Positions 29,999-32,189 of a stretch of 64,000 bases of DNA are shown one piece after another (positions within the stretch are counted from its first letter, which is position 1; each line of letters starts with the position of its first letter). The stretch lies in the NCBI RefSeq assembly GCF_017901135.1, contig NZ_CP072801.1, forward strand, positions 434,001-498,000, in the 5' to 3' direction. Source of the stretch: Thiothrix litoralis. Its GTDB lineage: Bacteria; Pseudomonadota; Gammaproteobacteria; Thiotrichales; Thiotrichaceae. The position numbers were made by a program, and so were the translations under genes. The notes beneath the pieces are model-generated. The model had not been told where the DNA came from. It did no database searches and worked only from the letters and a program-made list of their open reading frames with translations.

Positions 29999-30370
29999 TT
30001 AATGGGTAACCACGTCGGTATCGGTGGTTTCGGCTTGTTCGAGCAACAGCAGGTTGGCTTGCAGCTCTGCGAGCTCCTGAAGGATCAAATGTTTTTTTAA
30101 AAAATCAATAGGAAGATCAACAATATTCACACCAAGCTTCTTGGCTTGTTTCAACTCATATCTTACCCATCTTGAATTCATAGCAGCCGTCGATCTAATA
30201 AGAATCATATAGTTAGATTTTTTTACAGCCAAAAATAATTGTTTTTTTATTGGCTTATTCAGGTCAAGAGACAAATAGTCTATCCATATGTTATTTCCCG
30301 ACCGATGAAGAAACTCAGCAAATCGGTGGGCAAATTTTTTATCAACCCATGAATAACTAATAAATATCAT
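29999..30370 (-). CDS. TIR-domain protein
   Basis: This 123-residue protein consists almost wholly of a TIR domain: FISYSWVDKKFAHRFAEFL (strand A, helix A), IWIDYLSLDLNKPI (BB-loop region), NYMILIRSTAAMNSRWVRYEL. Glu72 in RWVRYEL occupies the position of the NAD-hydrolysing glutamate of catalytic TIRs. Bacterial TIRs often act in phage defence by NAD depletion or signalling, but many have other roles. The gene is AT-rich over most of its length while the last 30 codons have host-like GC. It starts 3 bases after a small membrane-protein gene. Confidence 0.75.
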   Translation of the reverse strand: MIFISYSWVDKKFAHRFAEFLHRSGNNIWIDYLSLDLNKPIKKQLFLAVKKSNYMILIRSTAAMNSRWVRYELKQAKKLGVNIVDLPIDFLKKHLILQELAELQANLLLLEQAETTDTDVVTH

Positions 30371-30373
30371 TAA

Positions 30374-30817
30374 TTAACCCTTGGAAAGAATGTTTGCACC
30401 GTCCTTATCGGTTAAAACAATAACATTTGGAACGAACGTAAGAGCCTCAGCATTAATCCAACTACCATCTATACTCATGCGTTCTGTTGTCACCTGAACA
30501 ACGCAACCACCAGGAACCTCTAAGGCTTTAGTGCTTTTTTGCCATGTTTTTCCTTGAACTTTAAAAAGAAGTTTTAATTTGTCTGGCTGGCCAAAAGTCT
30601 CAATTTCTTCTTTTATATCAGATGTTTTTGTGATCATCTTTTCTTTTATTTCAATGCCTGCAAAGCTGATTCCACCTTTATGTATTCTATCGGTAAGACT
30701 ATCAAGCAAGGAGCGAATTTGCCTTCCATATAAGAAAATTGCGATTAAAACTAACAGAGCCCAAGTGATTGTCTGAAATAATGGCACATACTCAATCATT
30801 TGCTTTAAGAGTTCCAT
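30374..30817 (-). CDS. Small membrane-anchored protein paired with the TIR gene
   Basis: This 147-residue product has one N-terminal transmembrane helix (PLFQTITWALLVLIAIFLYG, about residues 11-30) and a cytoplasmic-type domain rich in Lys and beta-prone segments (KLLFKVQGKTWQKS, VPGGCVVQVTTERMSIDG, FVPNVIVLTDKDG). The ATG at 30817 is chosen for the AGGT just upstream. The gene is AT-rich like the TIR gene and lies only 3 bases before it, so both are probably one transcript. I do not recognise the family; sensor or anchor for the TIR protein is inference. Confidence 0.6.
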   Translation of the reverse strand: MELLKQMIEYVPLFQTITWALLVLIAIFLYGRQIRSLLDSLTDRIHKGGISFAGIEIKEKMITKTSDIKEEIETFGQPDKLKLLFKVQGKTWQKSTKALEVPGGCVVQVTTERMSIDGSWINAEALTFVPNVIVLTDKDGANILSKG

Positions 30818-31337
30818 AATACCTGTCAGAGTGAGTGAAAACTGCCCAAGCTTACAAGATCTTATAAACAAAATGAAGTATTTGTAGAACTCCTACCCCG
30901 CATTGCTGGAAAATTGGTAATTGTGGACAGAGTTTTTACTCTACGCTTCTTGCATAAACGCCCAATTAATATTCAACTCCGGGAACAAGCCCACGGCGAG
31001 CGGCTCTTCCATCCCGAACATGCGTGGCAAGCCATATTGCCCGTCGTCCTTGAGCGTATACACCATCACCCAGCGGTCAGTCGGGTGGATAATCCAGTAT
31101 TCTTGCACGCCATGCAGCTCATAGAGCCATGTCATGTCCGAAGTATTGTTTTCAAGGTCACGGAGAAATTGAATGGGAACTCGTCAAAATGGCTGATTCC
31201 TTCGTTGAGATGGTTATCGCCAGTTATCATTAAAACTTGTACTTTTGTCGTAATCATCACAAGCCGTGGCTTATTCAATACTAGTCTTTCTGTAAAGTTA
31301 ATAATCCTTTTCTGAAACCCGCTATTGAGTAACTGAT
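30818..31337. other. Gene-poor, AT-rich stretch between the TIR pair and the repeat peptide
   Basis: Apart from the Uma2 remnant this 520-base stretch holds no supported gene. The part between 31160 and 31337 is AT-rich, has stops in all frames at short intervals and probably contains the promoter of the repeat-peptide gene. It looks like a scar of past insertions and deletions. Confidence 0.6.
30941..31160 (-). pseudogene. Uma2-family nuclease remnant, C-terminal part
   Basis: An open frame of about 65-75 codons matches the C-terminal third of Uma2 (DUF820) proteins: LYELHGVQEYWIIHP, VMVYTLKDDGQYG, and the terminal VGLFPELNINW. The N-terminal two thirds, including the first catalytic residues, are missing; the frame is closed upstream by a stop near 31175. 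Uma2 proteins have a PD-(D/E)XK-like fold and unclear roles. It is surely non-functional as a Uma2 enzyme. Confidence 0.7.
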
Positions 31338-31670
31338 ATGACGACTATTCAACAACGCCCCATCTGTATTGAGACAACAGACATCCAGCAATTGGCACAA
31401 CAAGGTCGTACCCGCGCCCTGAGTGCCCGCCAAACCTGCGAGGCCAGCAATCCAAAACAGACCAGTAATATGGGAAGTATGCTGAACGATTGTTCCAGTG
31501 CAATCATCGCAGGCGGTAAAACTGCTACTCCGACCAAGCCGCCTGTCGTTGCTGGTGGAAAGCCTGCACAACCCCCTGTTATTGCGGGTAGTTTGCCTGC
31601 GCCGATCAAACCTCCTGTTATTGCGGGTGGTTTGCCTGCTCCAACCAATCCTCCTGTTGCTACTTGCTGA
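31338..31670 (+). CDS. Proline-rich repeat peptide, possible modified-peptide precursor
   Basis: The 110-residue product has two halves. Residues 1-56 form a polar segment with three cysteines (ICIETTD, RQTCEAS, LNDC). Residues 57-110 carry a tandem repeat of about 13 residues of the form PPV-[VI]-AG-[GS]-x-PAP-x-[KN], in about four copies, ending in PPVATC with a terminal Cys. There is no signal peptide. A leader-like half followed by a short repeated core and a final Cys recalls ribosomally made, modified peptides, but no modification enzyme is recognised nearby. The next gene, for a Cys-rich protein, starts within about 20 bases. Confidence 0.55.
   Translation: MTTIQQRPICIETTDIQQLAQQGRTRALSARQTCEASNPKQTSNMGSMLNDCSSAIIAGGKTATPTKPPVVAGGKPAQPPVIAGSLPAPIKPPVIAGGLPAPTNPPVATC
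31519..31667 (+). repeat. In-frame proline/glycine repeat array
   Basis: About four degenerate 33-39-base units code for PPV-x-AG blocks. Neighbouring units differ mainly at single codons (for example AGGKPAQ, AGSLPAPIK, AGGLPAPTN), consistent with recent in-frame duplication. Confidence 0.75.
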
Positions 31671-31675
31671 GAATA

Positions 31676-32155
31676 ATGGTGATGCCCATGAATCTTGAGA
31701 CACTTTGCCCCAGTGCCAACCATAAAGAACAGGGCGCACAATTATTTGCAGTGGTTGGTGGTACGGCGGAAAAACCGGAAACGGCCTATCTGGATCATGT
31801 CCAGCCCATTACCGATGAGGTGTTGCAGCTTGCCGGAGACCTCGACCCTACAGAAGTTTTCCGGTTTGCTGCACCTTGTGCGAAAACAGGCTGCCAGCAT
31901 TTCGATGGGGAGCAATCCTCCTGCCAACTGGCGGCTAATGTGGTGAGTCTGGTGCCGGTGGTGGTACACAAGTTAGCACCGTGTCCTATCCGCAGTACGT
32001 GCCGGTGGTGGCAACAGGAAGGTGTGGCGGGTTGTCAGCGTTGCCCGCAGGTGGTGACGTTGAATTATGCACCCAGCGATGCTATGCGCACAGCGGCTAC
32101 TGCAACTGGAAAAGTGGCGGCCCCAATAGGAATCGAACCTATAGCTGCCCCTTAG
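31676..32155 (+). CDS. Cysteine-rich protein of unknown function
   Basis: The 159-residue product (start among 31676, 31682 or 31688) contains seven cysteines in its middle with spacing C-x4-C-x9-C-x19-C-x5-C-x10-C-x2-C plus one near the N-terminus; APCAKTGCQHF and PCPIRSTCRWW with CQRCPQVVT suggest zinc or iron-sulfur binding. There is no signal peptide or membrane helix. I do not recognise the family. The last 13 or so codons are read from the antisense of the tRNA-Arg gene, so the natural C-terminus has probably been replaced. It is coupled to the repeat-peptide gene upstream. Confidence 0.6.
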   Translation: MVMPMNLETLCPSANHKEQGAQLFAVVGGTAEKPETAYLDHVQPITDEVLQLAGDLDPTEVFRFAAPCAKTGCQHFDGEQSSCQLAANVVSLVPVVVHKLAPCPIRSTCRWWQQEGVAGCQRCPQVVTLNYAPSDAMRTAATATGKVAAPIGIEPIAAP

Positions 32156-32189
32156 GAGGGGGCCGTTTTATCCATTAAACTATGGAGCC
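32115..32189 (-). tRNA. tRNA-Arg (CCT)
   Basis: This is a 75-base cloverleaf on the minus strand: acceptor GGCTCCA pairing with TGGGGCC (one G-T pair), anticodon stem GCCCC/GGGGC around CTCCTAA (anticodon CCT), T arm CTATAGGTTCGATTCCTAT and an encoded CCA at 32115-32117. Its 3' end faces the accessory region at 30-32 kb. The preceding Cys-rich gene overlaps it by 41 bases in antisense. Confidence 0.95.

Follow-up and report, generated by a model that had tools for sequence, protein, structure and literature searches.

The window, a stretch of 64,000 nucleotides on a 4.28 Mb contig of Thiothrix litoralis, contains two neighbouring same-strand ORFs, the first encoding a repeat peptide and the second a cysteine-rich protein (table 1). 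The first-pass annotation had described a 110-residue product with a Cys-bearing, leader-like half and about four PPV-x-AG repeats ending in Cys, next to a protein with seven patterned cysteines. This description holds in its details. The first half of the peptide carries Cys 10, Cys 34 and Cys 52, three of the repeats are exact and the last is degenerate, and AIIAGG is an additional motif. The spacing of the seven cysteines in the second protein is likewise exact (positions 64, 69, 79, 99, 105, 116 and 119), to which we add an eighth, the N-terminal Cys7 in a CPS motif.

Table 1. Features of the peptide/Cys-rich protein locus, in positions of the window.
Feature	Position	Strand	Basis or remark
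Leader-bearing repeat peptide, precursor-like, 110 aa	31338-31670	+	ORF, homologues, HMM
Leader-like segment, residues 1-31 (RPICI + DIQQLAQQGRTRALSAR)	31338-31430	+	aligned to relatives' leaders
AIIAGG, residues 55-60	31500-31517	+	sequence; compare KGIIAGG, KGPIIYGG in relatives
Repeat 1, PPVVAGG, residues 68-74	31539-31559	+	sequence; family core motif
Repeat 2, PPVIAGS, residues 79-85	31572-31592	+	sequence
Repeat 3, PPVIAGG, residues 92-98	31611-31631	+	sequence
Degenerate repeat 4, PPVATC, C-terminal Cys, residues 105-110	31650-31667	+	sequence
Cys-rich protein, 155 aa, eight invariant cysteines	31688-32155	+	in-frame starts also at 31676, 31682
tRNA-Arg(CCT)	32115-32189	-	convergent; overlaps 3' end of Cys-rich ORF; outside the pair

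In the window, the closest neighbours of the pair are a TIR protein, an MscS channel, the fragment of a Uma2 gene and an ORF that belongs to no family. Scanning the adjacent ORFs confirmed that no modification enzyme of known type lies next to the pair in the window, as had been noted earlier; the ORFs scanned are of kinds other than LanK kinase or HopA1 lyase. A promoter scan at the locus gave no match, and three terminator-like sites all fall within the tRNA gene. The final ~13 residues of the Cys-rich protein are the antisense of tRNA-Arg and are common, in the alignment, to T. lacustris only; strain DSM 21227 of that species is the closest named relative among the fetched loci (Cys-rich protein 96% identical). 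We also observed that the 3' end of tRNA-Arg(CCT) faces the pair and that T. lacustris has the same read-through tail; this tail and the differing left flank may mark an insertion site. The interval 29999-30871 (minus strand) holds a small TIR-domain protein (PF13676, 4.2e-15; ThsB-like PADLOC models match as well) and an adjoining 165-aa ORF without a family match; the two may form a small pair for defence or signalling. The Uma2-family fragment (PF05685; 30941-31135, minus strand) lies beside the peptide/Cys-rich pair and spans the last third of the profile only. Neither the peptide nor the Cys-rich protein matched in a PADLOC search at E ≤ 0.01, and a defence system was therefore rejected as the identity of the pair.

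Compared with T. lacustris, the peptide has a dN/dS of 0.16 and the Cys-rich protein one of 0.09, and both ORFs are under purifying selection. Two antisense ORFs gave 0.18 and 1.38 in the same comparison; given the first of these values, the close species alone is insufficient to settle the frame. The first-pass annotation had allowed for an antisense frame being conserved in place of the repeat frame. The opposite was found: the sense frame outscored every antisense frame in 8/8 comparisons, out to distant species, and all three antisense frames contain stops in Thiolinea. With an HMM built from seven peptides outside Thiothrix (six from proteobacteria and one from an acidobacterium), the peptide frame took the top rank among the 853 ORFs of the window (E = 1.3e-10; second-ranked ORF 0.14). 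It also ranked first, weakly, with an HMM of cyanobacterial peptides (E = 0.015; second-ranked ORF 0.25). One antisense frame is open in both the window and T. lacustris, at the dN/dS of 0.18, as might be expected if the ORFs arose by chance or if the true gene lay on the other strand; taken together, the HMM, dN/dS and frame comparisons refute this reading, to which we assign next to no probability.

The two proteins had been proposed to belong together, and their homologues indeed co-occur as neighbours. Among 16 genomes of the genus, four hold the Cys-rich protein and the same four hold the peptide, each peptide homologue adjoining a Cys-rich gene. In 95 genomes of relatives, the Cys-rich profile matched five and the peptide query matched the same five plus two weakly; these weak matches (G036 and G073; E 0.006 and 0.009; internal stops) were taken as chance. 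The pair is adjacent and in the same orientation in all five genomes (four of the same genus and one of the same family). Its flanks differ among the five, and the tRNA-Arg/MscS side is common to the window and T. lacustris. Genome G003 has a second Cys-rich gene between two peptides with a lipoprotein-type signal, as judged by eye (L129:6926-7967 for the three together). A divergent second Cys-rich gene, 29% identical, is found in G004 (L127:6363-7835), and the 90-aa ORF upstream of it (L006:1128-1400) has no recognisable homology to the peptide. The C39 domain (PF03412) has 0 matches in the pair-holding Thiothrix genomes (G000, G003, G004 and G005); it is present in 5/16 genus genomes, all of them without the pair. 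With neither a GG site nor a C39 match, a C39-exported peptide was rejected as the identity of the window peptide.

All eight cysteines of the second protein are invariant in a 39-member and in a 70-member alignment. R59, R102, R106, W107, Q110 and E111 are also invariant in the 70 members, and of these non-Cys residues only R59, R102 and W107 remain so in distant members. The 70-member structure alignment consists of the window protein and 69 of 76 listed sequences; the list omits L027, L038, L042 and identical sequences, and the alignment further omits the near-copies L077, L081, L082, L085, L087, L089 and L090. The window protein matched nothing in Pfam or NCBIfam at E ≤ 10. For the 70 members the best Pfam value was 0.056, for a family found in two of them, and a PDB search with the family gave no convincing match to a solved structure. 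As identities of the Cys-rich protein, Pfam DUF1540 (0.37), the antifungal-protein model (0.056) and a PDB match to a sperm antigen (0.031) were all taken as chance. In a tree of 39 Cys-rich members, the Thiothrix/Thiolinea sequences form a clade (support 100/99), which is nested in a larger group (93/94) that also includes other members from beta/gammaproteobacteria. From this position we infer that the missing GG site and the multiplied core of the Thiothrix peptides are derived states.

The pair is conserved from Thiothrix to cyanobacteria, well beyond a single genome or genus. A scan of 84,980 species genomes recovered 111 sequences related to the Cys-rich protein, the best 80 of which comprise 68 cyanobacterial, 11 proteobacterial and one acidobacterial sequence; distant members are missed because the scan pattern requires a CRW[WF] motif. 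Seven of 398 Pseudomonadota genomes hold a member, the window's own counted. On plasmids, tblastn found more distant relatives in nine records, from Nostoc, Agrobacterium, Spirosoma, Polymorphobacter and Streptomyces. On the Streptomyces plasmids (L025:7715-8444, L026:7690-8435), the divergent Cys-rich member comes after a small peptide that has a secretion-type start and ends in Cys; in L026 there is an overlap between this peptide and the end of a helix-turn-helix gene.

At many of these loci, a small ORF lies directly 5' of the Cys-rich gene. The usual sequence of the cyanobacterial upstream peptide is IEINDLIDDAVNNAVARRN...LSDEEAxNVAGG with a core such as KPICPPIIVGLIAVP after it; that of the beta/gammaproteobacterial one is IxxxDIxxxAxQGVxRALxAR...ELSPEExxxVSGG with KGIIAGG or KGPIIYGG after it. 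The double-glycine site is present in five aligned beta/gammaproteobacterial peptides and in many others that were read (uncounted). In most upstream peptides a helical leader and a double-glycine site occur together with a short core motif (PIIxGG / PIIVGLI), which most of them carry once or twice. The leader-like segment of the window peptide aligns with KPxxIxxxDIxxxAxQGVxRALxAR of the beta/gammaproteobacterial peptides and with the cyanobacterial leaders. As read from their sequence, the PPVVAGG/PPVIAGG units of the window peptide are the relatives' core motif in several copies, and AIIAGG is possibly the original single core. The LSxEExxxVxGG cleavage site is absent from the window peptide, which also contains no tyrosine and matches neither the Nif11 family nor any Pfam/NCBIfam model. 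Its C-terminal Cys recurs in the peptides of T. lacustris and T. fructosivorans and in the first peptide of G003, and the T. lacustris peptide has one repeat unit fewer, the missing unit depending on the alignment. The leader is conserved and the core variable in length and repeat number, as in a RiPP precursor with a leader, in keeping with the precursor-like look reported at first.

Held-out HMMs (five-fold, E ≤ 0.01) detected an upstream leader-like peptide in 62/78 loci, with random folds that left close relatives in both training and test; the 78 loci omit the near-copies L038 and L042. The upstream slot, defined as same-strand ORFs whose end lies between 500 nt upstream of the match start and 60 nt beyond it, inside the match, comprised 199 of the 8184 ORFs, and 31 HMM matches fell elsewhere, in 25 loci. 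At least one of the 62 upstream matches (L102) is probably an NHLP precursor and outside the peptide family. Among the 16 loci without a match, six are helix fusions, described below (L067, L084, L098, L103, L104 and L106), L055 is cut by the contig end, the upstream region of L099 is masked, L056, L062 and L105 have a peptide visible by eye, and in L095 a TPR protein appears by eye to contain a similar helix. The other four (L046, L068, L093 and L094) have no leader-like peptide upstream. The core pattern occurs in 54/62 upstream peptides compared with 8.0 expected on shuffling, a count that is descriptive because the pattern was written after the peptides were seen. Second peptides were also observed downstream of the Cys-rich gene in cyanobacteria (L034:6439-6672, L036:3556-3795, L040:6454-6693 and L041:6435-6671); they have the leader in common and carry other cores, some with Cys/Thr, and are candidate class V lanthipeptide precursors.

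In L067, L084, L098, L102, L103, L104 and L106, as well as on the Nostoc plasmid L021, a leader-like helix (e.g. ELENATFHAKQRAIEAR) is fused to the Cys-rich domain, as judged by eye, and an NHLP precursor lies upstream of every such fusion except that of L098. The predicted model of one fusion shows a helix at residues 21-41 (pLDDT 75-85) preceded by a strand at 17-19, in a model that is poor overall (pLDDT 55, pTM 0.51).

To survey the neighbours of the pair, we grouped genes by blastp in stretches of up to 6 kb a side and scanned one or two members per cluster against family libraries. The resulting counts are lower bounds because contig ends cut the stretches. Across the 78 loci, we counted radical SAM genes at 26 (a cluster that includes other kinds, by eye in L103), Nif11 precursors at 25, PpiC-type isomerases at 25, HopA1 at 21, HlyD at 20, LanK-like kinases at 19, C39 transporters at 15 and NHLP precursors at six. 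At least one of these eight types is present at 55/78 loci, and at 23/78 a Nif11 precursor is the next gene downstream (cyanobacteria). Family identifications were radical SAM TIGR04103 (820 bits), Nif11 TIGR03798 and HopA1 PF17914 (9.3e-58); the LxmK-like kinase (84 bits against 315) and the TIGR04500-like PpiC protein remained below cut-off.

These neighbours allow the Cys-rich protein to be read as a redox or metal-cluster donor to the radical SAM and class V lanthipeptide enzymes of the cluster, with the peptide incidental. A radical SAM, LanK-like or HopA1 gene does lie in the fetched stretch at 39/78 loci. None is clustered at the other 39, however, which include all 12 non-cyanobacterial loci and some short stretches, and the best TIGR04103 score in the genome of the window is 37.5 bits against a cut-off of 725. 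We consider such a donor role unlikely. Less probable still is a structural or surface role for the peptide, as a proline-rich, lipoprotein-like repeat protein next to a Cys-rich protein for metal storage or sensing, the two being linked by co-regulation only. The lipoprotein-type signals of the two G003 peptides and the differing repeat number between close species would fit this; the double-glycine leaders and C39/HlyD neighbours of the relatives argue against it, as do the Cys-rich domains to which a leader-like helix is fused.

Outside cyanobacteria, the surroundings are simpler. Four of the 12 non-cyanobacterial loci have HlyD and C39 genes, and the other eight have none of the eight neighbour types, some in short stretches. 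In these four (L032, L033, L035 and L055), which are gammaproteobacterial, HlyD and the C39 transporter follow the Cys-rich gene. Three of them have the peptide upstream, where the fourth meets a contig edge. Their clustered neighbours, whose ORFs were scanned in part, included no recognised maturase. Six genomes from further classes within the phylum, probably Alphaproteobacteria, also hold the Cys-rich gene, next to a longer protein in two, a different small protein in two, a downstream peptide in one and no partner seen in the last, and no RiPP-type genes were recognised around it by eye. Alignment of the longer neighbour with the leader by hhalign gave E = 0.062 and a probability of 0.9%, a weak likeness that does not establish the longer partners as homologues of the peptide.

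Small clusters of peptide, Cys-rich gene and exporter in which no maturase is recognised, together with the ordinary-looking genes (by eye) around the Cys-rich gene in the six genomes, are what would be expected if the peptide stayed unmodified. The Cys-rich protein would then be a chaperone, a self-protection or an anti-aggregation partner by which a Pro/Gly-rich, possibly membrane-active peptide is prevented from doing harm before its export. Against this, the six invariant non-Cys residues of the 70 members suggest more than passive binding, an argument that weakens in distant members with their three. We regard the chaperone-like role as a possible but doubtful explanation.

Our preferred reading, with a probability of about 0.5, is that the locus is a two-gene module consisting of a leader-bearing, multi-core, RiPP-like precursor and a dedicated cytoplasmic partner, which is probably a leader-binding metalloprotein. 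In favour of this module are the pairing and conservation of the two genes, the anatomy of the peptide, the exporters and RiPP enzymes in the vicinity of many relatives, the helix fusions, and the lack of a GG site and of C39. The peptide has an N-terminal leader with an amphipathic helix and a C-terminal half with several P-[IV]-[IV]-x-G-G cores. The Cys-rich protein would recognise the leader and hold or modify the core, most likely by way of one or two metal sites formed by its eight invariant cysteines. Where relatives have a C39 transporter, cleavage at the double glycine would release the core for export. In Thiothrix, where the GG site and the transporter are missing and the core is multiplied, the product would either leave by another route, for which the lipoprotein-like peptide versions of one Thiothrix genome offer a comparison, or act inside the cell; a role in export or signalling is putative. 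Lacking the GG site and C39, the window peptide is not handled by the processing route that is probable for its relatives. Because it nevertheless keeps the leader helix and the core motif, and the Cys-rich gene is also retained, the leader would appear to serve the Cys-rich partner and not an exporter alone.

Several observations count against the two-gene module. The same leader type precedes other cores in cyanobacteria, where it may serve other enzymes or the exporter. The upstream peptide is lacking at 4/78 loci, and the second gene of G004 is unpaired. In the six genomes of other classes, the Cys-rich gene has neighbours of other kinds or none. The partners in G003 and Streptomyces seem to carry Sec-type signal peptides (by eye) and the Cys-rich protein does not. 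A more specific proposal, which we hold only tentatively, is that the eight-Cys proteins are a new class of RiPP maturase, namely small metalloenzymes that would bind their partner peptide by its helical leader and then modify the PIIxG core. In Thiothrix such an enzyme would need no other maturase and would make a multi-core product; in cyanobacteria spliceases and class V lanthipeptide enzymes would have joined it.

The first-pass annotation had seen in the second protein a metal-binding partner, enzyme or carrier, roles that are putative, and had called the locus a candidate undescribed system. The latter stands in so far as neither protein has a Pfam/NCBIfam model, and less so in that many relatives lie near known RiPP enzymes or exporters. 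In the open literature searched, by titles and abstract openings, we found no earlier description of the pair. What emerges is an eight-Cys family that crosses phyla, accompanies a leader-bearing peptide and occurs, in cyanobacteria, in the vicinity of two RiPP chemistries that are already known. Should the family prove to be a maturase or a metalloprotein that binds leaders, it would be a new RiPP part without a model in the curated libraries searched. Consisting of just two genes, next to which no further known maturase lies, the Thiothrix pair would offer a simple test system.

We compared the pair with four known systems. The proposed role resembles that of RiPP recognition elements and other leader-binding partners, in that a small protein binds the leader. 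Eight invariant cysteines are not known to be a feature of such elements, and no convincing fold match was found for the Cys-rich protein. With spliceotides, the pair has in common the nearby radical SAM genes, of which the two scanned (L063 and L021) belong to TIGR04103, the family to which PlpX presumably belongs as well. Nif11 cores in L021, L054, L065, L066 and L069 have MYG or LYG among their YG sites, and the splicease PlpXY is reported to act on MYG and LYG sites (PMC10533398). The window peptide, in contrast, has no Tyr and no Nif11 match, and its genome stays below the TIGR04103 cut-off; it was rejected as a splicease substrate for want of Tyr and of a TIGR04103 match above cut-off.

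Genes of class V lanthipeptide type lie close to the pair in many cyanobacteria, namely the LanK-like and HopA1 genes counted above, and peptides with similar leaders and Cys/Thr cores are encoded there too. The paired peptide differs in being marked by the PIIxG motif, with no Ser/Thr-Cys pattern by eye, and LanK/HopA1-type enzymes are not adjacent in the window. A cyanobacterial 'type-B' LanA group is reported in the lanthipeptide section of PMC9486802, which names no Cys-rich protein; the downstream peptides with the same leader may be this group. Double-glycine leader peptides near C39-peptidase ABC transporters have been described in cyanobacteria (Wang et al. 2011, PMC3140520), in passages that do not mention a Cys-rich partner. 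The window peptide is set apart from these by the missing GG site and by a genome without a C39 match, but its relatives share the GG-type leader, and many of these have HlyD, C39 and PpiC/SurA-type genes in their surroundings.
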